Assembly (NCBI RefSeq): GCF_005845365.1
Contig: NZ_CP040509.1
Location: 868,001-932,000, forward strand
Direction of reading: 5' to 3'
DNA: 64,000 bases
Origin: Rhodoluna limnophila
GTDB taxonomy: Bacteria > Actinomycetota > Actinomycetes > Actinomycetales > Microbacteriaceae
This document shows, piece by piece, positions 6,409 through 41,283 of this stretch. Position 1 is the first letter of the stretch. The number at the start of each line of letters is the position of its first letter. The position numbers and the translations under genes are program-made. The notes under the pieces are model-generated. The model was not told where the DNA came from, searched no databases, and saw only the letters and a program-made list of their open reading frames with translations.

Positions 6409-7323
6409 TCAGGCCCGAGGGTGGGCGTTTTTGTAGCTATCTTTGAGTCGTTCTACAGATACATGGGTATAAATCTGCGTGGTTCCAAGGCTTGAGTGTC
6501 CGAGGAATTCTTGCACCGCCCGAAGGTCAGCTCCCCCATCAAGAAGGTGAGTTGCTGCACTGTGCCTCAATGAATGTGGGCCCGCAGATCCGGTTGGAGT
6601 GCCTTCTAGTAGTTTTGCCACCAGGGCGTAAACCTGTCTGACTCCAAGCCGGCGGCCTCTTGAATTTAGGAGCAGCGCTGTGGCGCTGGACTCATTTGCC
6701 AACTGTCCTCGACCGGCGCGAATCCAGAGGTCAAGTGCTTCCGCTGCCGGGAGACCGTAGGGAACCATTCGCTGCTTTGACCCCTTACCGGTCACTCTTA
6801 GAAGCCTTCGGTCGTAGTCAACATCCTCCAGGTTCAAACCAACCAACTCGCTTACGCGAGCACCAGTGGCATAAAGGAGTTCGATAACTAGTAGGTCCCT
6901 CAACCCCTGAGGGTTATCGATTACCGCCAGCGGCCTCAGGTGTTCAAAAATCATTTCGAGGCTCTCGCGCGAAACCACTGTTGGAAGAGACCGCGAAGCC
7001 CTCGGAGATCGCAGCCGCTGACCAGGGTCCGAGTTTGATATACCCGCCTGGTGCAACCAGGATGTGAACGACCTGATGGCTGCGCTCTTCCTGGCCAAGG
7101 TGGTCTTAGTAAGACCACGCTGATTTAGGTGCCACAGGAAATCTCGGATGAGTTCGAGATCTAGGTCAGCGGGGCGGTTTAGGCCCCGACCCTCACCGAA
7201 AGCTAAAAGTTCAGATATGTCGGACAGGTAAGCCCGCATGGTATTCGGCGAGCGCCCCCGACCTGAACCCAAATGGGTTTCAAATTTATCCAGGGTCTGC
7301 ACAAAGGCTTCGTTCACAATCAA
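6409..7323 (-). CDS. xerC: tyrosine recombinase XerC
   Basis: XerC and XerD resolve chromosome dimers at dif during division. The 304-residue protein has an N-terminal SAM-like core-binding domain and a C-terminal catalytic domain. The catalytic residues are all visible: Arg156 (TGARVSEL), Lys180, His250-x-x-Arg253 (HSLRHSAATHLL), His276 (LGHSSLGTTQ) and the nucleophile Tyr285. The start is TTG 7323 or GTG 7317; the first overlaps the dprA stop by 4 bases. No integrase-like neighbours are present, so it is the housekeeping XerC and not a phage enzyme. Confidence 0.95.
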   Translation of the reverse strand: MIVNEAFVQTLDKFETHLGSGRGRSPNTMRAYLSDISELLAFGEGRGLNRPADLDLELIRDFLWHLNQRGLTKTTLARKSAAIRSFTSWLHQAGISNSDPGQRLRSPRASRSLPTVVSRESLEMIFEHLRPLAVIDNPQGLRDLLVIELLYATGARVSELVGLNLEDVDYDRRLLRVTGKGSKQRMVPYGLPAAEALDLWIRAGRGQLANESSATALLLNSRGRRLGVRQVYALVAKLLEGTPTGSAGPHSLRHSAATHLLDGGADLRAVQEFLGHSSLGTTQIYTHVSVERLKDSYKNAHPRA

Positions 7324-8558
7324 AGGTTAGTTTGCACTTGGCGCCAATCGGAACCGCGGCGCTCAACGAGTCCGGCTAATTCAAGTTGAGCTAAACCAAA
7401 TTTTGCTTCGTTGCGAGTGAGGCCTGCCTCTCGGCAAATAATTTCAAGGGATTCATGGCCGAACCCGATTGCATCGAGGACCCGCGTTTCAATAGCTCCA
7501 AGACCGGCTATCGGCTGATCCACTTCAAAGGCCCCACTGAGCGGGAGTAGGTCCCTGAGGCCTGCCGTTCCGCTCACCAGTGATGCCTGCCCTGCCTCAA
7601 TAAGTTGATTGCACCCCGCTGACTTGGGCGAGTAAATTGGCCCCGGCACAGCACCCACCGTGCGGTTTAGAGCCAAGGCGTGGCGGGCTGTGCTGAGGGC
7701 GCCAGATCTCCAGTTGGCCTCGGTAACCAAGGTGGCGTGCCCCAGCGCAGCAATCAACCGATTTCGCTGCAAAAAGCGCCACTTGCTCGGAGCAGAACCT
7801 GGAGGTAATTCACCAACTACCGCGCCTTCTGAGCAAATTCTCTCCAACAGAAGGCGGTTTGCACTTGGATACAACCGGTCTACCCCTCCAGCTAGCACGG
7901 CAATGGTCCCTGGCTCCGACGCAAGCGCAGTTTGATGGGCAACAGCGTCAACCCCAAGAGCCCCTCCCGATACGATTACCGCACCCAGCTGACTTGCTGT
8001 GTAAGTGAGTTCGGCTGTAACCCTGCGACCGTATTCGGTCACTCCCCTGGACCCGACAATGGCCAGACTTAGGTTTGAACCGAGCAGGTCGGTGCGACCT
8101 CTAACCCAGAGCGCAAACGGAGCAAAACTTCCGAGGTCAGCAAGACCGTTGGCCCATATCCCCTCATCTGGAACCAAGAGGCTCCCTCCGACCGACCGGA
8201 TGTATTCAAGGGCTCTAAAGACAGCCTGGGAGCTAAGTCTTTGACTCCATCTCGCACGAGCGTCATCCAGGTATTTTTGACCGTTTTCAAAGTCCGGCAG
8301 TGTATCCAGTGAGAACCCCACCTGATTCAAACTGCGCTCAACGGAGTTGGATTCGAGTCCCGCAATCAGTAATTCAAGAGCCCTGACCGGCCCAAGAATA
8401 GACACCAGACAGCCAGCGAAACCATCCCCCGGCTCGCAGATTGTGCTCCACGCGGCTCGGGCAAAGATGTCAAAATTGGCCGAGTGGTCCGTAGCCATCC
8501 CGACAAGGGCTAAATCGACCTCTTTTGGGTTCATCCGCAAGGTTGTATCGGTGGCCAT
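7320..8558 (-). CDS. dprA: DNA-processing protein DprA
   Basis: DprA binds single-stranded DNA taken up by competent cells and loads RecA. The 412-residue protein has an N-terminal helical region, then the Rossmann-like DprA core around residues 165-330. Core motifs include AIVGSRGVTEYGRR, IVSGGALGVDAVAHQ and RFLQRNRLIAALG. The C-terminus has a winged-helix-like DML1 segment (ETRVLDAIGFGHESLEII). It sits between comM and xerC with overlapping stop/start codons on both sides. DprA is widely kept in bacteria not known to be competent, so it does not prove competence. Confidence 0.95.
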   Translation of the reverse strand: MATDTTLRMNPKEVDLALVGMATDHSANFDIFARAAWSTICEPGDGFAGCLVSILGPVRALELLIAGLESNSVERSLNQVGFSLDTLPDFENGQKYLDDARARWSQRLSSQAVFRALEYIRSVGGSLLVPDEGIWANGLADLGSFAPFALWVRGRTDLLGSNLSLAIVGSRGVTEYGRRVTAELTYTASQLGAVIVSGGALGVDAVAHQTALASEPGTIAVLAGGVDRLYPSANRLLLERICSEGAVVGELPPGSAPSKWRFLQRNRLIAALGHATLVTEANWRSGALSTARHALALNRTVGAVPGPIYSPKSAGCNQLIEAGQASLVSGTAGLRDLLPLSGAFEVDQPIAGLGAIETRVLDAIGFGHESLEIICREAGLTRNEAKFGLAQLELAGLVERRGSDWRQVQTNL

Positions 8559-10123
8559 CAGGCAGCCTCCAACGGATTATCGCCGCCACGTAGGATCAGT
8601 GCTTCGCAGATGTTTTCGACTGTAGGTGATTGGTTGCCGGCCAGGTCGGCAATGGTCCAAGCCAACCGCACGCAACGGTCGTAACCTCGCATGCTCAGCA
8701 AACCCCGCTCAAGAGCACGGTCGAGTTCTTTAGTGACTGCCCGTCCTAGTTTTAGTTGCCTCCTGAGGTAAGGCCCAGGCACCTGCGCGTTTAGTTTCCA
8801 AGGTGTGCCGATAAGCCTTGATTCAGCTGCCGCACGCGCCTGTGAAACCTTGGCCCGCAGTTCGGCAGAGCTTTCGCGAGGAACGGCCGAATCTCGATGA
8901 AGCGCTATCTCTGCCGAACTAACCGGTAAAAGCGGGAGGCGAATGTCGATACGGTCCAGCAGGGGGCTTGAAAGCTTCGAGGCGTATCGGTGCTTTTGGA
9001 GATAGCTGCAGGTGCACTGCGCGCCCCTACCAAAGCCTCGACCGCAAGGGCATGGGTTAGCTGCCATCACCAATTGAAAACGAGCCGGGAACCTAGCCGT
9101 GCCAGCCGAGCGATTGATCATTACCTCGCCGGACTCAAGTGGTTGCCGAAGAGCCTCGAGCACCGGCAGCATAAATTCAGGAGCCTCGTCCAGAAAAAGG
9201 ACCCCGTGGTTTGCCAGAGAAATCAAACCCGGCCGAGGAAGACCGACACCACCACCGACCAGTGAAGCCACCGAGGCGCTGTGATGAGGTGACTCGAATG
9301 GTGGCCGCCGGATCAGGCTTGTGGCACGCACTTCAGGGGTTGCTGCTGAAATTGAATGAACCGCTGTGGTCTCTAATGCAGCCTCAAGCTCTAGATCGGG
9401 CAACAAAGTTGGTAGGCGCTCGGCCAGCATGGTTTTACCAGCACCGGGTGGCCCAACCATGAGCATGTGGTGACCTCCAGCGGCCGCCACGGTCAGAGCC
9501 TCGACAGCAGAATCCTGACCGACCACATCTGAAATGTCCACACCACTTTGATGCATAGACTCCAAAACGGTCTGCACCTCAAAGGTTTGCGCGAACGAAA
9601 CATCGTCTGTTCGAACCTCAGCACCATGAATAGCAGCAACCTGCCTCAGGTGCTCGACACCAGTTACCTCAATGCCATCGATAAGGCTGGCCTCAGCAAA
9701 GTTCACCTGGGGAACAAAGGCTCGGGTGCATCCGGCTGCCTTAGCCGCCAGCAGCGCCGGCAACACTCCTCGAACACCACGAATCAAGCCATCCAGGCCA
9801 AGCTCACCTAAGAAAATTTGCCCCGGATTTATAGACACCTTTAGGTTTGCAGCCAAAATAGCCATCGCGATGGCTAGGTCAAAACTTGCGCCGTACTTGG
9901 GCACTGAGGCTGGCGAAAGATTGACCGTGACTCGACGCGCGGGCATTTCTAGACCACTGTTCTGGATGGCCGAGCGGACTCTATCTTTGGCCTCGCTCAG
10001 CGAAGCATCGGGCAAACCGACCAGGACAAACGAGGGTAGATTACTTGAAATTTCAGCTTCAATTTCAACCAGGGTGCCGGCTAAACCGAGCAAACTGATG
10101 GCAAAAGTTTTTGCAACCGGCAT
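8558..10123 (-). CDS. comM: YifB/ComM-type Mg-chelatase-like AAA+ ATPase
   Basis: ComM-family helicases promote branch migration of incoming DNA in natural transformation; in many bacteria the gene is called yifB. The 521-residue protein has an N-terminal ChlI-like domain (residues 1-170). The AAA+ core contains Walker A GPPGAGKTMLAE near residue 225, Walker B VLFLDEAPEF near 310, and a C-terminal region (LSMRGYDRCVRLAWTIADL). The zinc-like cysteine cluster ANPCPCGRGFGRGAQCTC is typical of the family. Its stop overlaps the dprA start by one base and its start overlaps the yraN stop by one base. Confidence 0.95.
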   Translation of the reverse strand: MPVAKTFAISLLGLAGTLVEIEAEISSNLPSFVLVGLPDASLSEAKDRVRSAIQNSGLEMPARRVTVNLSPASVPKYGASFDLAIAMAILAANLKVSINPGQIFLGELGLDGLIRGVRGVLPALLAAKAAGCTRAFVPQVNFAEASLIDGIEVTGVEHLRQVAAIHGAEVRTDDVSFAQTFEVQTVLESMHQSGVDISDVVGQDSAVEALTVAAAGGHHMLMVGPPGAGKTMLAERLPTLLPDLELEAALETTAVHSISAATPEVRATSLIRRPPFESPHHSASVASLVGGGVGLPRPGLISLANHGVLFLDEAPEFMLPVLEALRQPLESGEVMINRSAGTARFPARFQLVMAANPCPCGRGFGRGAQCTCSYLQKHRYASKLSSPLLDRIDIRLPLLPVSSAEIALHRDSAVPRESSAELRAKVSQARAAAESRLIGTPWKLNAQVPGPYLRRQLKLGRAVTKELDRALERGLLSMRGYDRCVRLAWTIADLAGNQSPTVENICEALILRGGDNPLEAA

Positions 10124-10476
10124 CAGAACACCTGCTTCAGGTGTTCGATTGCGACTCTGCCCTGATTGACCAGCACCGCTATTGCATCAAGCCTCACCTT
10201 GACACCAGAAACCTCGTGGTCTCGGCACCATTCGGCAACGAGTTTGCGCATGCGAGAAACTTTAAGCGGGGTGATTGCCTCAAAAGGATGCCCGAAACCA
10301 GTTCCATTTCTGGTCTTGACTTCGACAAACACGTATCGCCCCTTTTCTAGGGCGATCAGATCTATTTCACCGCTCGCACCTCGCCAATTGCGATCTACTA
10401 TTTCGTAACCGCGGTCGGTGAGAAATTGCGAGGCGCGGTCTTCGCCGTATTTGCCCAAGAGTTGTTTTTGATTCAC
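10123..10476 (-). CDS. yraN: YraN family (UPF0102) nuclease-fold protein
   Basis: This 117-residue protein belongs to UPF0102, a restriction-endonuclease-like fold of uncertain function often found next to comM, dprA and rnhB. The family core is visible: GEDRASQFLTDRGYEIVDRN at the N-terminus, then GEIDLIALEKGRYVFVEVK with the Asp and Glu-x-Lys of the PD-(D/E)xK pattern. It starts with GTG at 10476. A terminator lies just upstream (10504-10527), so yraN-comM-dprA-xerC probably has its own promoter or depends on read-through. Confidence 0.95.
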   Translation of the reverse strand: MNQKQLLGKYGEDRASQFLTDRGYEIVDRNWRGASGEIDLIALEKGRYVFVEVKTRNGTGFGHPFEAITPLKVSRMRKLVAEWCRDHEVSGVKVRLDAIAVLVNQGRVAIEHLKQVF

Positions 10477-32945: not shown

Positions 32946-33692
32946 ATGAGTAAATCTTCAAACTTCAAAGTTGAGATCTGGATCGTGCTGGCCCTTAGTT
33001 TAGGAGCCTCGGCTGTTTACTCAACTGTCTCGCTGATCAACAAACTGACTGCTCCATCTGGCCTGGCTGGTCAGACCACCAGCATCAATCCATCTCTGGC
33101 GCGGGCCGAGTGGCTTGATTTCACGTATCAAATACTGGGAATCACGTTTGGTCTGGCCCCGGTTGCGCTGGCCTTGTACTTGGTTTGGCAATCTGACGGC
33201 AACCCGCTCAAACGCCTTTCGCTAACTTTCGAAAAACCATCGTTTTGGATCACCCGAGGCTTTGGCCTAGCCGCACTTATTGGCATACCCGGAATCGGCC
33301 TTTACGTAGCTGCTCGACTATTGGGGCTTTCGAGCAAGATTTTGCCAGCCGAGTTGCCCGATTACTGGTGGGTTGTTCCGGTGCTTCTCTTGGCCGCAGT
33401 CAAAGCTGCCCTGGTTGAAGAGGTCATAGTGGTTGGATTCTTATTCGACCGTCTCGAAAAAATTGGTTTTAGTTGGGATAAACAGCTTTGGATTAGTTCG
33501 ATCCTTCGAGCCAGCTATCACCTCTACCAAGGTTTCGGCGGTTTTGTCGGCAACTTGTTAATGGGATTGGTTTTCGGACTGGCATACAAAAAATGGGGTC
33601 GCCTAACACCCTTGGTCGTGGCGCACTTTTTGCTAGATGCGTTTTCCTTTGTTGGCTTTGCACTAATCGGTAACAATCTGCCGCTGCCGTAG
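32946..33692 (+). CDS. CPBP family intramembrane protease
   Basis: This 248-residue protein has about seven hydrophobic segments and the CPBP (Abi/CAAX) active-site pattern. The glutamate pair is in LVEEVIVVGFLFDR near residue 158, the histidine is in SYHLYQGFGGF near 191, and VVAHFLLD near 227 is the third motif. CPBP proteins are membrane endopeptidases linked to self-immunity or prenyl-protein processing in other organisms; no substrate can be inferred here. It is just ahead of the cobalamin riboswitch but outside that control region. Confidence 0.88.
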   Translation: MSKSSNFKVEIWIVLALSLGASAVYSTVSLINKLTAPSGLAGQTTSINPSLARAEWLDFTYQILGITFGLAPVALALYLVWQSDGNPLKRLSLTFEKPSFWITRGFGLAALIGIPGIGLYVAARLLGLSSKILPAELPDYWWVVPVLLLAAVKAALVEEVIVVGFLFDRLEKIGFSWDKQLWISSILRASYHLYQGFGGFVGNLLMGLVFGLAYKKWGRLTPLVVAHFLLDAFSFVGFALIGNNLPLP

Positions 33693-33715
33693 AGCTGTCG
33701 CAGGCAAGACTGCTA

Positions 33716-33841
33716 CATTGGACGCAGTTGCCCTAAACCAGCAACCCTTTTGCCTAGAGCAGGGAAAGTCCGGTGAGAATCCGGCGCTGACCCGCAACCG
33801 TAAGCCTTTTTGGTAAGTCGGAATGCCTGCCTGACAGCAAT
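33716..33841 (+). ncRNA. cobalamin (B12) riboswitch aptamer
   Basis: The region holds the conserved B12-box GCTGACCCGCAACCG (33786-33800). Before it lies the paired element AGTCCGGTGAGAATCCGG, with arms CCGG and CCGG near 33770-33784, after GGGAAAGT. After it, GCCTGCCTGAC (near 33825) follows the usual spacing. Aptamer boundaries are approximate. A -10-like TACATT (33714-33719) sits just ahead. It precedes a five-gene operon of putative B12-uptake genes, which it would repress when cobalamin is abundant. Confidence 0.93.
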
Positions 33842-33842
33842 T

Positions 33843-33937
33843 GACTCCTTATTCACCGTCGAGGTCTACGGTCGGAGTCGAATGGTTCCATACCTTTCGT
33901 CTTCGCATTCAGATCGCATAAAGCGAAAGGTTTCAAA
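33843..33937 (+). promoter_or_regulatory. expression platform of the B12 riboswitch, with Shine-Dalgarno sequestering stem
   Basis: Two hairpins follow the aptamer. The first pairs GACTCC (33843-33848) with GGAGTC (33874-33879), helped by CCGT/ACGG. The second pairs CCTTTCG (33893-33899) with CGAAAGG (33924-33930). The 3' arm of the second contains GAAAGG, the ribosome-binding site of the ATG at 33938. Formation of this stem would block translation. There is no T-run, so control is probably translational. The exact switching pairing with the aptamer is not resolved. Confidence 0.7.
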
Positions 33938-34924
33938 ATGTTTGGAACTAAATCTGGATTGCGCAAACTTGTTGCAATCACATCAATAACCACCACACTC
34001 TCACTCGTTGCGCCAACGGCGGCAGTTGCGGCTCCCCCATACCAAACCACCGTTTCATACCTGAGCGGCAAGTTTGTGAGCGGAAAATATCTAGCCGGCT
34101 TCAGCGCAGGGTCAAAAGATTTTGGCATGTCGATCGAGGCCTTGCTTCAGCTGAATGCTGGCGGGCACGATCTGGCCAAACTTGGCACCAAGGCACAGTA
34201 CTTGCTCAACACAAAATCGGTGGTCGGTGACGTGGTCACCCGCACAGGTTATGTTTTCAACACCGATGCCAACAAAACCCTAAATGTCGGTTTGGCGGGC
34301 AAGTACCTGTTTGTGTCTCGAGCACTTGAAGTGCCAGCTGAGTATCTGCAGTACCAGATCTTCAAAGAACTAAAGACCCGAATTGCTGCCGACGGCACCG
34401 TCTACGGCGCAACCAACGACTTTGACTACGCCTGGGTTGCTTTGGGTTTGAACGCCTACCTCGAGCACACTCTGGCCAACAAAGTAATTCAAAAGCTGAT
34501 CACTCGCCAAAACACAGATGGCGGCTTTAGCTCGTTCGGAACCGCCAGCTCGGCTGAAGCCACCGGCCTTGCACTGCAGGCCCTGTCACTACGCCGCTGG
34601 TTCGGCAACACCACAGAAGACAAAGCTCGTTCGACAGCAATTGGCAAGGCGCTTAGCTATGTCCGTAAAACCGACTCTGGCGACAGCCACATTGAGTCCG
34701 ACTACGGATATGACGTAAACGGCACGGCATACGTGGCAATGGGACTGAAGGCTGCCGGAAAACTAGTGGAGGCTAAGCCTTACCGAATCTGGCTCAAATC
34801 TAAGCTGGCCTCGACCGGCGGATTCACCGTACCCTGGAGCTCTGGCAGCGCTGACGTAATGGCCACTTCTCAGGCATACGTACCGCTGATTGCCAAGAGC
34901 TACCTAGATCTTCTTAACGACTGA
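33938..34924 (+). CDS. secreted alpha/alpha-toroid protein resembling the intrinsic-factor/transcobalamin barrel domain
   Basis: A 328-residue exported protein with a signal peptide (basic, then TTTLSLVAPTAAVAA, cleaved near residue 35). The body is a repeated helical-hairpin fold of the squalene-cyclase/prenyltransferase type: TTNDFDYAWVALGLNAYL, NTDGGFSSFGTASSAEATG, YDVNGTAYVAMGLKA and GGFTVPW mark successive repeats with Gly-Gly-Phe turns. No catalytic DxDD or zinc motif of the terpene enzymes is seen, so binding rather than catalysis is likely. The last segment (ATSQAYVPLIAKSYLDLL) recalls the end of the vertebrate intrinsic factor barrel. It is first in the B12-riboswitch operon, so cobalamin or a corrinoid is the inferred ligand. 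Confidence 0.75.
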   Translation: MFGTKSGLRKLVAITSITTTLSLVAPTAAVAAPPYQTTVSYLSGKFVSGKYLAGFSAGSKDFGMSIEALLQLNAGGHDLAKLGTKAQYLLNTKSVVGDVVTRTGYVFNTDANKTLNVGLAGKYLFVSRALEVPAEYLQYQIFKELKTRIAADGTVYGATNDFDYAWVALGLNAYLEHTLANKVIQKLITRQNTDGGFSSFGTASSAEATGLALQALSLRRWFGNTTEDKARSTAIGKALSYVRKTDSGDSHIESDYGYDVNGTAYVAMGLKAAGKLVEAKPYRIWLKSKLASTGGFTVPWSSGSADVMATSQAYVPLIAKSYLDLLND

Positions 34925-34926
34925 GC

Positions 34927-35463
34927 ATGCCAAAAGGCTTAGTGCTGACCCTAGGCCTACTGCTAGCCGCAGTAGGCCTATTCGGGGTCCTCTCGAAAAA
35001 CCCAGCATCCACGCCAGCACCTGAATCGAGTGCTGTCAGCAGTGGGCCTTGCCTGGATTCTGGGGTGACTCTAGTGATTGATTTTGGGTCTGAATCAGCT
35101 CTGGAAAGCAAAGTTTCATGCCTACAAGATTTTGCGGGCAATGGCTGGCAATTGTTAGAAGAAGCTGATTTGGCACCAACCGGAACAAGTCAATACCCAG
35201 CAGCGTTTGTTTGCCGCATAGGCGGATGGCCTACCGAAACTGCACAGGATTGCCTTGACACCCCCAGCTATCAAGAGGGCACCTGGGTCTACTTCAAATC
35301 TCTAGCCGGTGAGTGGGTCAGAAGCGGACAGGGTGCAGCTGACCCGAACAATCGAGTTGCCTGCGGAGCGGCGGAGGGCTGGGTGTTCATCACGCCGAAC
35401 ACACCTGAATCCGAGCAGTCACCATCGGCGTCCGTTCCACAACTCACCTGTGACACCAAATAG
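34927..35463 (+). CDS. membrane-anchored beta-domain protein (DUF4430/transcobalamin C-domain-like)
   Basis: A 178-residue protein starting two bases after the toroid gene. A hydrophobic N-terminus (LVLTLGLLLAAVGLFGVL, residues 5-22) has no lipobox, so it is a signal anchor or signal peptide. Residues about 45-170 have the pattern of the DUF4430-type domain: VTLVIDFG, then GWQLLEE, FVCRIGGWPTETAQDC, TWVYFKSLAGEW and GAAEGWVFI. Its spacing recalls the C-terminal beta domain of intrinsic factor and transcobalamin. Cysteines at VSCL, VCR, QDCL and ACGA could form disulfides. It lies between the toroid gene and the ECF transporter under one riboswitch, so it may hold the toroid protein at the membrane. 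Confidence 0.62.
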   Translation: MPKGLVLTLGLLLAAVGLFGVLSKNPASTPAPESSAVSSGPCLDSGVTLVIDFGSESALESKVSCLQDFAGNGWQLLEEADLAPTGTSQYPAAFVCRIGGWPTETAQDCLDTPSYQEGTWVYFKSLAGEWVRSGQGAADPNNRVACGAAEGWVFITPNTPESEQSPSASVPQLTCDTK

Positions 35464-35466
35464 GGC

Positions 35467-36420
35467 ATGTTCAAGACTTTGACCGCACAGGTACACCCCG
35501 GAGTTTGGTGGCTACTTGGCCTGTCCTTTGCTGTCGCAGCAAGCTTGCAGGACTATTGGCTCCCGCTTGCAATTATTTGCCTGACATCCGTTGCCCTCGC
35601 ATCTGCTGGAGCGGCCGAAAACGCAGTGCGGCAAACCCTTCGGCTCTACCTAATCCTGGCAATCCTGGTGATTTTGGTCCGAGTTTCTTTTCGAGTAATT
35701 TTCAATTTTCCAGACCCCACTAAGCCGGTCTTTTTGAACCTTCCTCTAATCAACCTAGATCTAGGATTTGGCACGCTTACCTCGCTCTTCGGTCCGGTAT
35801 CGCTGGCGTCAATTACTTTAGGCCTAACCGATGGCTTGCGACTGGCAGCGATAATCCTGGCCGTGGCCATGGCAAACACCTTGGCAAACCCAAAACGACT
35901 TTTGAAGAGCACGCCGGCAGCACTCTACGAGCTGGCCACAGCAGCCGTAGTGGCTATTAATCTTGCGCCCCAACTTATTTCAAGCCTCCAGAGAGTCAGA
36001 AAAGCTCGCGAGCTTAGAGGGCGAAGTCGAAAAGTCACCACCCTGACTGGCACGATTATTCCGGCGCTGGAAGACACGATTGACAGCTCTCTAGATTTGG
36101 CCGCCAGCATGGCATCTCGGGGCTTCGGAAGGCGTGGGCCAGTGCCAGCTGGTCAGCTCAGGGAGACTCGTCTCCTAACATTCACAGCGCTGGTTGCGAT
36201 GATTTTTTCCATTTTCTCGATGCTGAGTGTTGGGCTGAGTGACCTAGTAACCCCAATTAGCTTTTTTATCGCCTTGATAGCCAGTCTTACCTCTGTGAAA
36301 CTTGCTTCGCGACACGGAGTTAGAACTCGATTTCGGGCCCACACCTGGGCAGCAGCTGATTTTGCAATCATGGGACTGAGCGCCTCAATAGTGTTCGTTG
36401 GCTTCTGGCTTGGAGGCTAA
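35467..36420 (+). CDS. ECF transporter T component (EcfT/CbiQ-like)
   Basis: This 317-residue membrane protein has five or six hydrophobic segments and the coupling helices that identify T components: KARELRGRSRKV near residue 180 and MASRGFGRRGP near 213, each with the short Arg-containing motif that contacts the ATPases. It follows the beta-domain gene by 3 bases. It joins the ATPases and S component encoded downstream into one energy-coupling factor complex. The T, A-A, S order resembles the predicted actinobacterial CbrTUV-type cobalamin transporters as I recall them. Confidence 0.9.
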   Translation: MFKTLTAQVHPGVWWLLGLSFAVAASLQDYWLPLAIICLTSVALASAGAAENAVRQTLRLYLILAILVILVRVSFRVIFNFPDPTKPVFLNLPLINLDLGFGTLTSLFGPVSLASITLGLTDGLRLAAIILAVAMANTLANPKRLLKSTPAALYELATAAVVAINLAPQLISSLQRVRKARELRGRSRKVTTLTGTIIPALEDTIDSSLDLAASMASRGFGRRGPVPAGQLRETRLLTFTALVAMIFSIFSMLSVGLSDLVTPISFFIALIASLTSVKLASRHGVRTRFRAHTWAAADFAIMGLSASIVFVGFWLGG

Positions 36421-36421
36421 T

Positions 36422-38005
36422 GTGATCAAGACTTCAAACCTGACGCTTAGGTATAAATCGAGCGAAACTCCGATCCTAAGAAACGTCAACTTAGCTATTA
36501 GTGCTGGCCAGATGGCGCTTGTTTGCGGCCCGACCGGGAGCGGAAAATCAACGCTCCTGAAATGCCTGAATTCAATTGCTCCTGCATTCACCGGAGGGAC
36601 TCTCACCGGGTCGGTTTCAATAGACGGACAAACCACCTCCGGTACTGCTCCACACGAAATTGCTCACCTGGTTGGCTATGTGAACCAGCAGCCAGAAGGT
36701 GGTTTTGTCTCAGAAACCGTTGAGGATGAGCTGGTTTTCGGCATGGAGCAACTAGGTGTTACGCCAGCTGAAATGGGCAATAACCTTGCTCGGGTAGCCG
36801 AGATTTTTGATCTCGCTCCGGTGCTGGATCGACGACTAACTGAGCTTTCGGGCGGGCAACAGCAAAAAGTCGCTATTGCAGCCGCCGTTGCAGCAGGCCA
36901 AAAGATTTTGTTGCTCGACGAGCCGACCTCGGCGCTTTCACCTTCGACAGCCGCCGAGTTGCTGTCCCTTCTAAAAAAACTGAGCACCGATGAGGGCATC
37001 ACGGTGATTCTCGTAGAACATCGAATCGAACGGGTACTTGAGTTGGTTGATTCCGTGGTCATGGTGCACGGTGACGGTTCAGTGACTCAGGGCGACAAAA
37101 CAACCCAATTCAGCGACTCCAGATGTGCCCCACCACTCATCGAACTAAGTCAAAAACTGGGATGGGCCCCGGTGGCCACCAACGTCTCAGAGGCACGAAA
37201 TCACTGGCGTGAATCGGCTCCGAGATTCCGCAGTCGCGTTCCTCTGAGTCCTAATCCAGAAATGGCCCTGAGCATTCGAGAGCTCGATGTTCATTACGGC
37301 AGTGAAGCCGCCGTATCGGGAGCCACGTTTGACCTAGCATTCGGCTCTATCACAGCACTTATGGGGCAAAACGGAGCGGGAAAAACCAGCCTCATCAGCG
37401 CCCTCAGGGACCCGAAATTAATCTCCTCCGGAACGGTAGCTTTGGGTGAGCGCAGCACCACCGACCTGTCGTTGCAAGAGCTGCTTCGAGCAGTGACCAT
37501 GGTTCCACAGAAGGCCTCTGACCTGCTTTTTCTGAATTCGGTCGGTAAGGAGTTGCAGGAGTCAGATGCGTTCGGGGGCCTTGCGACAGGCACAACAGCT
37601 CGTTTGCTGACTAGATTGAACGGCCGGCTGGACCCGAATCAGCACCCACGAGACCTCTCAGCAGGACAAAAACTTTCGTTGGTTCTGGCCATGCAGTTGG
37701 CGAATGGGGCACGCGTCCTGCTGCTAGACGAGCCGACTCGTGGTCTCGATTATTTTGCCAAGCGTCAACTGGCCGAACAGTTACAGGTGCTGCAGACCTC
37801 TGGTGCATGCATCTTGGTGGCTTCGCATGACGTGGAGTTCATCTCTCAAATCGCCGACCGCGTGCTGCTCCTAGATCAGGGCAAACTTATCCAGGACAGC
37901 GCCCCAGAAGAACTCCTTGGATTTCAAAAGCCATTCGAAACCCAAATTGCGCAGGTCTCAGAATTGCCCGACCTCATTTCAATTAGTCAGGTGGTCGAAC
38001 TCTGA
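36422..38005 (+). CDS. ECF transporter ATPase with two fused ABC domains
   Basis: A 527-residue fusion of two ABC ATPase domains. The first has Walker A CGPTGSGKSTLLKCL near residue 40, signature LSGGQQQKVAIAAA, and Walker B LLLDEPTSALS. The second has MGQNGAGKTSLISAL near 325, signature LSAGQKLSLVLAMQL, and LLLDEPTRGLD. I place the start at GTG 36422, with GGAGG eight bases ahead, rather than at an upstream ATG overlapping the T gene. It overlaps the S gene by one base (TGATG). Both ATP sites look intact, so it would act as the whole ATPase pair. Confidence 0.93.
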   Translation: MIKTSNLTLRYKSSETPILRNVNLAISAGQMALVCGPTGSGKSTLLKCLNSIAPAFTGGTLTGSVSIDGQTTSGTAPHEIAHLVGYVNQQPEGGFVSETVEDELVFGMEQLGVTPAEMGNNLARVAEIFDLAPVLDRRLTELSGGQQQKVAIAAAVAAGQKILLLDEPTSALSPSTAAELLSLLKKLSTDEGITVILVEHRIERVLELVDSVVMVHGDGSVTQGDKTTQFSDSRCAPPLIELSQKLGWAPVATNVSEARNHWRESAPRFRSRVPLSPNPEMALSIRELDVHYGSEAAVSGATFDLAFGSITALMGQNGAGKTSLISALRDPKLISSGTVALGERSTTDLSLQELLRAVTMVPQKASDLLFLNSVGKELQESDAFGGLATGTTARLLTRLNGRLDPNQHPRDLSAGQKLSLVLAMQLANGARVLLLDEPTRGLDYFAKRQLAEQLQVLQTSGACILVASHDVEFISQIADRVLLLDQGKLIQDSAPEELLGFQKPFETQIAQVSELPDLISISQVVEL

Positions 38006-38781
38006 TGAACTTCAAACACCAAGCCATGAGAGCCCTGGCTCTGTCACTCGCTTCCGTGGCGGCGCTGATGATGTTTACCTGGCCACTGGTTATTGGGGTA
38101 ACTGCCCAGAGCGAATCTGAAATTGCCCAAACCGCATTTTTGATACTGATGCCGCTGGTTCTTGTTTTGCTACTGATTGAATTTTCAACCGGCGGAATCG
38201 ATGCCCGACAGATTGCCCTACTGGGTGTACTAACTGCGCTCAATGCTGTGATTCGAATGCTGGGCGCCGGAACGGCCGGTGTGGAGACAGCATTTTTTCT
38301 GATTATTATCGCTGCCTACGTTTTTGGGCCAAGTTTTGGATTTCTCTTCGGGGCGCTGTCGCTTTTGGTTTCGGGTCTTCTCACGGGCGGTATCGGCCCG
38401 TGGTTACCATTTCAAATGATGGCCGCTGCCCTGGTTGGACTAGCAGCTGGTGCATTGCCAAAAGTTAGCAGAACCTGGCTCCAATTCCTGATGCTTTGCG
38501 GGTACGCATTCGTCGCCAGTTTTTTCTATGGCGGATTGATGACTCTTTGGAATTGGCCATTTCTTGCCGGCAGTGGGACTTCAATTTCTTACGTAGCCGG
38601 AGCCAGTCTCATCGAAAACCTAACGAGGTTTTTACAGTATGAAATCTTCACCGGCGGCTTGCTCTGGGACTTTGGGCGAGCGATTACGACCTCAGTTTTG
38701 ATCTTGTTAACGGCACCAGCCCTGCTGGCCACTCTGAATCGAGCAGCAAACAGGGCTGGTTTTGTGAAGCTACCGGATTAG
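38005..38781 (+). CDS. ECF transporter S component, cobalamin-type
   Basis: A 258-residue membrane protein with about seven hydrophobic segments. The block ARQIALLGVLTALNAVIR, with Ala-rich small residues for packing on the T protein, and the later GGIGPWLPFQMMAAALVGL are characteristic of ECF S components in this actinobacterial subgroup. The cobalamin specificity is inferred from the upstream riboswitch; Lactobacillus CbrT is the best-studied S component for B12. The end of the gene overlaps the DoxX-like gene's stop by 4 bases, and no terminator is visible between them. Confidence 0.85.
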   Translation: MNFKHQAMRALALSLASVAALMMFTWPLVIGVTAQSESEIAQTAFLILMPLVLVLLLIEFSTGGIDARQIALLGVLTALNAVIRMLGAGTAGVETAFFLIIIAAYVFGPSFGFLFGALSLLVSGLLTGGIGPWLPFQMMAAALVGLAAGALPKVSRTWLQFLMLCGYAFVASFFYGGLMTLWNWPFLAGSGTSISYVAGASLIENLTRFLQYEIFTGGLLWDFGRAITTSVLILLTAPALLATLNRAANRAGFVKLPD

Positions 38782-40867: not shown

Positions 40868-40913
40868 GCGCTATGGGATGACTCGTAGCCTCTTGCCGAA
40901 ACAAAAGCCTGAG

Positions 40914-41283
40914 TGGAGATGGGGGGAATTGAACCCCCGTCCAATACAGAGTTTCTGACTCTTCTACGGGTGTAGCTTCAATAAGGTTCTACTCGGCCCC
41001 GGCACTAGCTTGAAGCGACACATCCGACGGGCCCAGCCAAAGTGAAAGTCCCGAGCAGCCCTTAGGCACAACTACTCAGCAAGATCTCTAAATGACGCTA
41101 GGGTTCAGAACGAAATCAAATCTGATCTAACGGACTTCGGGGCTAGCGCTATTAAGCAGCTAGGGCGAAGTCGGTGCGTGATGATTTAGCACCTATAGTT
41201 TGCAGCGGACATTAACGAGTTGACGCTACATTCTCGACCCGCTTCTTCCAGTTACACATGCACTGTCGAAACCGATCATCCCC
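40914..41283 (-). ncRNA. ssrA: transfer-messenger RNA
   Basis: tmRNA rescues stalled ribosomes with SmpB. The acceptor stem pairs GGGGATG at the 5' end (41283) with CATCTCC at the 3' end, and the T arm GGACGGGGGTTCAATTCCCCCC is present (about 22 bases at 40921-40945). No CCA is encoded. The tag's end is clear: the frame ACC GAC TTC GCC CTA GCT GCT TAA gives TDFALAA, with KSSR before it. The resume codon is uncertain, because the usual GCA at the expected place is in another frame. smpB lies just upstream, the standard pairing. Confidence 0.95.

Follow-up and report, generated by a model that had tools for sequence, protein, structure and literature searches.

A putative split, membrane-anchored transcobalamin-type binder encoded with a probable B12 ECF importer in Rhodoluna limnophila, and its circularly permuted sister form

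In textbook ECF importers it is the S component that binds the vitamin, and no external binding protein is known to take part. The animal B12 carriers transcobalamin, intrinsic factor and haptocorrin combine an alpha/alpha toroid with a beta-grasp lid, and the predicted models of two neighbouring proteins described here are alike in this respect; in contrast to the single chain of transcobalamin, however, toroid and lid are here encoded by separate genes as two polypeptides, the lid is membrane-anchored and shares 14–17 % identity with the carriers in lid alignments, and the pair appears to serve an ECF importer, where the animal carriers rely on receptor uptake. Bacterial transcobalamin-like SLBB domains with toroid fusions and CbiO/CbiQ neighbours, for which B12 scavenging was proposed, have been described (Burroughs 2007, PMC1796856), and the present system resembles that clade in its extracellular SLBB domain and CbiO/CbiQ-type operon. 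The available sections of that paper list low-GC Gram-positives, planctomycetes and euryarchaea, not actinobacteria, and the term 'circular permut' is absent from its text; circular permutation is mentioned, in the accessible part of another paper, for a different beta-grasp domain, E1 UFD (PMC1949818). For freshwater actinobacteria of the acI group, an ECF module led by a cobalamin riboswitch has been proposed as a cobalamin transporter, in an account whose available part makes no mention of a lid protein (PMC5301498), and ECF transport of B12 is, by its title, the subject of work on ECF-CbrT (PMC5997447). A search of the open-access literature found no paper on SCO2322, actinobacterial lids, their permutation or toroid-free operons. 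What we judge to be new is a probable split, membrane-anchored transcobalamin-type binder, its place in a probable actinobacterial B12 ECF importer, and a permuted sister form.

The features of the locus within the window (the whole 64,000 nt stretch of R. limnophila DNA that was analysed) are as follows.

32946..33692, plus strand: CPBP (Rce1-like) membrane protein (PF02517), encoded upstream of the riboswitch; a possible member of the system
33709..33848, plus strand: cobalamin riboswitch aptamer RF00174, 31.7 bits against a gathering cut-off of 31.5, E-value 1.8e-6
33938..34924, plus strand: toroid, an alpha/alpha toroid protein of 328 aa with a cleavable-type signal (AVA); putative alpha-domain partner
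34927..35463, plus strand: lid, the subject of this report, a membrane-anchored protein of 178 aa with ATG start, transcobalamin-beta-like (SLBB, beta-grasp) by predicted fold
34936..34989, plus strand: N-terminal hydrophobic anchor helix of the lid, without lipobox, residues 4–21 of the predicted model
35164..35280, plus strand: long stretch of the lid from a helix to the next core strand, residues 80–118, at the position where transcobalamin has its B12-contacting hairpin
35467..36420, plus strand: ECF transporter T component, CbiQ family (PF02361, 33 bits against 25)
36398..38005, plus strand: ECF double ATPase (A1A2), PF00005 in two stretches; best NCBIfam rows are ECF_ATPase, below their cut-offs
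38005..38781, plus strand: ECF transporter S component (PF12822, 36 bits against 30.7; PF07155, 29.5 against 26.7)

The riboswitch and the toroid, lid, T, A and S genes all lie on the same strand and are predicted to form one operon, with the riboswitch match ending 89 bases ahead of the toroid ATG and a gap of two bases between the toroid stop codon and the lid start. The riboswitch is barely over its cut-off, and RF00174 matches nowhere else in the 1.40-Mb genome; only 25 of the 60 genomes of the genus have one over the curated cut-off. In 40 of the 47 genus genomes that bear the lid, a riboswitch nevertheless lies upstream of it on the same contig and strand, at a distance of 1023–1267 bases in 36, 620 bases in one (G022) and 99–117 bases in three; in the remaining lid genomes it is on another contig (two) or has no match at E 0.001 (five), and one genome (G036) has a riboswitch but no lid. 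The 620-base case coincides with a toroid (L201:2402-2908) that matches the first and last parts of the toroid profile only, as if its middle were missing. A match to RF00279 on the other strand (33927–33991; 20.2 bits, cut-off 42) was taken as chance. The CPBP gene also precedes the toroid in six of 23 fetched relatives, and is found in L198, L199, L201 and L203; elsewhere in the window, at 40911–41283 on the minus strand, there is an ordinary tmRNA gene.

The initial annotation, made from the sequence alone, had singled out the lid for its hydrophobic N-terminus without a lipobox, four spaced motifs and several cysteines, all of which are borne out. The ORF at 34927–35463 contains VTLVIDFG, FVCRIGGWP, TWVYFKS and GAAEGWVF; its N-terminus has a Kyte–Doolittle 17-residue maximum of 2.57 and is helical over residues 4–21 of the model; and the mature part holds six cysteines (42, 65, 96, 109, 146 and 175). 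C96, C109 and C146 are invariant in a 30-row lid alignment, whilst C42 and C65 are jointly absent from three rows (L018, L022 and L029), the pattern expected of a disulphide pair. The lipobox of a lipoprotein substrate-binding protein was not found in the window lid by our own pattern search, but is present in its relatives L022, L198 and L199 (the latter two by eye). The gene is encoded in 47 of 60 genomes of the genus, including that of the window, and among 30 lid loci drawn from these 47 a toroid gene lies directly ahead of it in 28 (partial in L005, L011 and L012), which marks it as a conserved gene rather than a chance ORF. Of the two exceptions, L029 begins at a contig start, and in L017 the interval from riboswitch to lid contains no toroid. 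Conservation is concentrated in the stretch of 39 residues that separates a predicted helix (73–79) from the next core strand (119–126), a long insert of the kind that marks the transcobalamin-like SLBB family (PMC1796856): 11 of the 16 residues invariant in the mature part (alignment A3) fall within residues 80–118 (hypergeometric 4e-4, with boundaries set by us). According to the available part of the same paper, a hairpin of this insert touches B12 in transcobalamin.

The lid was modelled from 24 sequences (pLDDT 86.2, pTM 0.76). Foldseek against the PDB ranked transcobalamin first, at E 0.04 with a probability of 0.97, and intrinsic factor second, at E 0.087 with one of 0.90; these E-values are weak, and no PDB match had E below 0.001. 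As a second look, VIA-align 2 was used to re-align the 823 top Foldseek-ranked chains, and its best 15 PDB entries comprise 14 of transcobalamin, haptocorrin or intrinsic factor together with 3u7z, which we take to be of the DUF4430 type. The last, from Ruminococcus, bears the PDB title 'putative metal binding protein'. These 15 entries score Z 9.0–9.7, with 93–104 residues aligned at an rmsd of 2.6–4.4, and the next row has Z 5.3. As best Z values of 7 to 8 are common by chance with this tool, we take the match as meaningful because one family fills the top ranks, well clear of the next row. The predicted model, a beta-grasp fold, superposes on the C-domain of transcobalamin, and the initial proposal of a DUF4430/transcobalamin-type beta domain accordingly agrees with a model that finds the lids of the animal carriers first. 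Sequence searches were silent on this point: 30 members of the lid family had no relevant Pfam match up to E 1, DUF4430 included, and a PDB sequence search with the lid gave no match, carriers included, so that the lid is filed in the transcobalamin-like family by fold and context only. In escaping the Pfam models the window lid differs from the clade of Burroughs 2007; a single CbiG_C match (E 0.1, in one of the 30 lids) was taken as chance. Taken as predictions, the models support both the fold and the membrane anchor of the lid.

The toroid model (pLDDT 90.0, pTM 0.87) is likewise an alpha/alpha toroid, but its best structural matches are terpene cyclases (Z 25.3), intrinsic factor following at Z 21.0 (rmsd 3.0, 238 aligned) with glycosidases at about the same score. 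The toroid fold is therefore unspecific, and by itself the toroid does not speak for B12. One might accordingly suppose that the lid is a stand-alone substrate-binding protein and that the toroid serves another purpose, a view that overlaps with our preferred explanation as far as the lid is concerned and that gains from the lack of a toroid match beside the lid in several lineages. We nevertheless consider it unlikely, given that the toroid stands directly ahead of the lid in nearly all genus loci, and that in L156 a single open frame of 1228 codons (6519–10202), directly behind a cobalamin riboswitch, contains a lid, an Ig-like region and two toroid regions. This frame has a signal-like start and, by eye, a C-terminal membrane helix, and is adjoined by a second lid gene; it is the sole lid–toroid fusion among the loci scanned with the toroid profile. 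A first contig scan using the toroid itself as query had found no relative.

Lids are also found on their own. At three loci of the same genus (L198, L199 and L200) the riboswitch lies 99–117 bases ahead of the lid, which leaves no room for a toroid gene. In L198 and L199 a lipobox-bearing lid comes straight after the riboswitch and the ECF genes follow, T and A sharing a single frame, with no toroid match; in L200, analysed on its upstream side, the lid retains its membrane helix. Small genomes of one family (f44), which from their size and from PMC5301498 are probably acI, have the order riboswitch-lid-T-A-S without a toroid match (L093 and L104), and the toroid profile found none at E 0.001 in 10 of these acI-like genomes (one at 0.014); toroid absence is here judged with a genus profile of weak sensitivity, to which other toroids score only 13–56 bits. 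L179–L181 (genus g105, with 1.2-Mb f44 genomes) have riboswitch and lid only, where the sister genus has lid-T-A-S, and no S component was found anywhere in these genomes. Separately, six genomes from the family or order of the window's own genome (L165, L170, L172, L175, L176 and L185) carry a lid beside a fused ECF frame (T-A-S in four, T-A in two), with no RF00174 match in the genomes and no toroid near the lids, and these operons may be differently regulated or carry another ligand. Two lid genes occur in one neighbourhood in L149, L151, L155, L163, L166, L169 and L183, several of these with more than one riboswitch.

These arrangements bear on the role that the initial annotation gave to the lid, that of a lid or docking partner keeping the secreted toroid at the membrane near the transporter. 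Its anchor and its toroid and ECF neighbours agree with such a role. Taken to its extreme, in which the lid binds no vitamin and just anchors the toroid, the idea would draw on the contrast between a lid with a membrane helix and an adjacent gene for a toroid with just a cleavable-type signal. Yet besides the lids without a toroid (L198, L199 and the acI-like loci), 11 of 24 toroids of the genus carry a lipobox of their own with their lids keeping the membrane helix (in L022 the lipobox is on the lid and not on the toroid), and the most conserved part of the lid is the long insert at the ligand site. A mere tether is thus improbable, and tethering, partly supported as it is, would be only part of the story. 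Toroid-free lids, lipobox-bearing toroids and the fused frame together make it more likely that B12 binding outside the cell falls to the lid, as core subunit of the ECF importer, with the toroid as a frequent partner.

Whether the ligand is B12 was approached through the genomes' need for it. The genome of the window has a MetH gene that scores 1251 bits against a cut-off of 1011, although the stretch read is truncated at one end; it also has a gene for a B12-dependent ribonucleotide reductase, at 1513 bits against 859, and one for a second, lower-scoring reductase. CobS, the synthesis gene searched, was matched in none of the 60 genus genomes and in 10 of 14 control genomes. Counting PF02310 or NrdJ over cut-off as a B12 enzyme, one was present in 43 and absent from four of the lid genomes, compared with six and seven of the lid-free genomes (60 genomes; Fisher p 0.00096); among the 20 genomes with completeness of 90 % or more and contamination of 5 % or less the counts were 16/0 and 1/3 (p 0.0035), both tests being weakened by their disregard of phylogeny and of incomplete assemblies. 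Counter-cases are thus six lid-free genomes with a B12 enzyme and four lid genomes with neither, and one of the former six (G009, 91 % complete) has both enzymes without lid, S component or riboswitch. It is conceivable that the system carries something other than B12, such as cobalt, another vitamin or a precursor of corrinoids, the riboswitch merely reporting B12 status: the T component is of the CbiQ family, the S component exceeds the cut-off of a riboflavin-type Pfam model (PF07155) and matches in the PDB 5d0y ('conserved hypothetical membrane protein', E 7e-6) and, weakly, the folate S component 5d3m (E 0.003), and some lid operons are without a riboswitch. We hold this to be rather unlikely, since the fold matches cobalamin carriers first, the lid co-occurs with B12 enzymes and, with CobS unmatched in all 60 genus genomes, the usual route for completing a corrinoid precursor would not be available.

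Weighing this evidence, we favour, with a probability of about 0.72, a reading in which an extracellular B12 binder of the transcobalamin type is split in two, with the lid as its membrane-anchored beta subunit. At low cellular adenosylcobalamin the riboswitch would allow the toroid, lid and ECF transporter genes to be expressed; anchored through its N-terminal helix, the lid would grip cobalamin with its beta-grasp face and long insert, and the secreted toroid, where present, would close on it from the opposite side, forming a sandwich from which the vitamin may be handed to the S component for ATP-driven import.

The same operon slot is occupied in other actinobacteria by SCO2322, one of two families (SCO2321, NF053823; SCO2322, NF040672) whose NCBIfam entries list no function, and which likewise occur with a riboswitch and T-A-S genes. 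The window lid scores 16.2 bits against the SCO2322 model, below its cut-off of 85, and the match is local, aligning lid residues 120–168 with model positions 9–55. SCO2322 proteins prove to contain the same two halves in the opposite order: profile comparison in native order scores 67–69 over 50–51 columns, whereas after rotation it scores 112–118 over 117–118 columns with the best cut between the halves, and 40 column shuffles used as a control score at most 23.6. Individually, the N half matches SCO2322 positions 73–137 (E 5.9e-10) and the C half positions 8–58 (E 1.6e-12). By profile alignment, then, SCO2322 is a circularly permuted form of this lid. Judged by eye, several SCO2322 proteins start with a signal peptide and carry their membrane helix at the C-terminus, as opposed to the N-terminal anchor of the window lid.

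Both forms are widespread. Among 296 genomes of the class, 102 have an SCO2322 match over the cut-off and 116 are matched by the window-order alignment at E 0.001. Some of the latter matches run in window order over almost the whole length, and many are confined to the C half, as permuted lids should be. We fetched 20 SCO2322 loci spread over families and 40 further loci chosen mainly by score, of which 39 were in window order by profile and one (L187, left out of the comparisons below) in SCO2322 order. A full T-A-S set lies near the lid in 17 of 20 SCO2322-order and 31 of 39 window-order loci, several others ending at a contig edge (L157 and L161). A riboswitch lies near it in 19 and 30 loci, respectively, at E 1 or better (18 and 29 at E 0.001), and the genus toroid profile, weak at this distance, detects a toroid in nine and 14.

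In a tree of A and S components (59 sequences), 18 permuted operons fall within one strongly supported part of 22 rows; on this quick, unrooted tree the order label needs three changes, of which the starred branches force at least two. A lid tree, with permuted rows rotated (141 columns, many open forks), places the permuted lids in one clade (support 97), beside which stand the window-order lids L167, L168, L177 and L186, and the two trees disagree on the sister group of the permuted forms. The simplest reading is a single permutation from window order, with later lid swaps or a reversal. The latter was considered for L167, L168 and L177, which lie inside the permuted clade in the transporter tree and beside it in the lid tree, and whose order-neutral scores are SCO2322-like by 14–29 bits. 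Permutation in place, suggested by two acI-like gene orders in which nine flanking genes match (39–83 % identity), was dropped: the window-order lids of L179–L181 group with those of the fused-ECF lineage, and on them the window-order profile outscores that of SCO2322 by 27–30 bits, so that replacement fits better.

We rate as an even chance the wider proposition that a large part of the actinobacteria has an ECF B12 importer with its own external anchored lid, to which the toroid is dispensable, and that this lid was permuted into SCO2322 in the same slot. If so, a function can be proposed for the widespread SCO2322 family, and a class of vitamin importers with external binding proteins is suggested. 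With the two forms, nature would also have supplied B12 lids that differ by a circular permutation and through which the grip on B12 can be studied; the system may bear, too, on the origin of the animal B12 carriers and on the way in which freshwater bacteria that depend on B12 acquire it.
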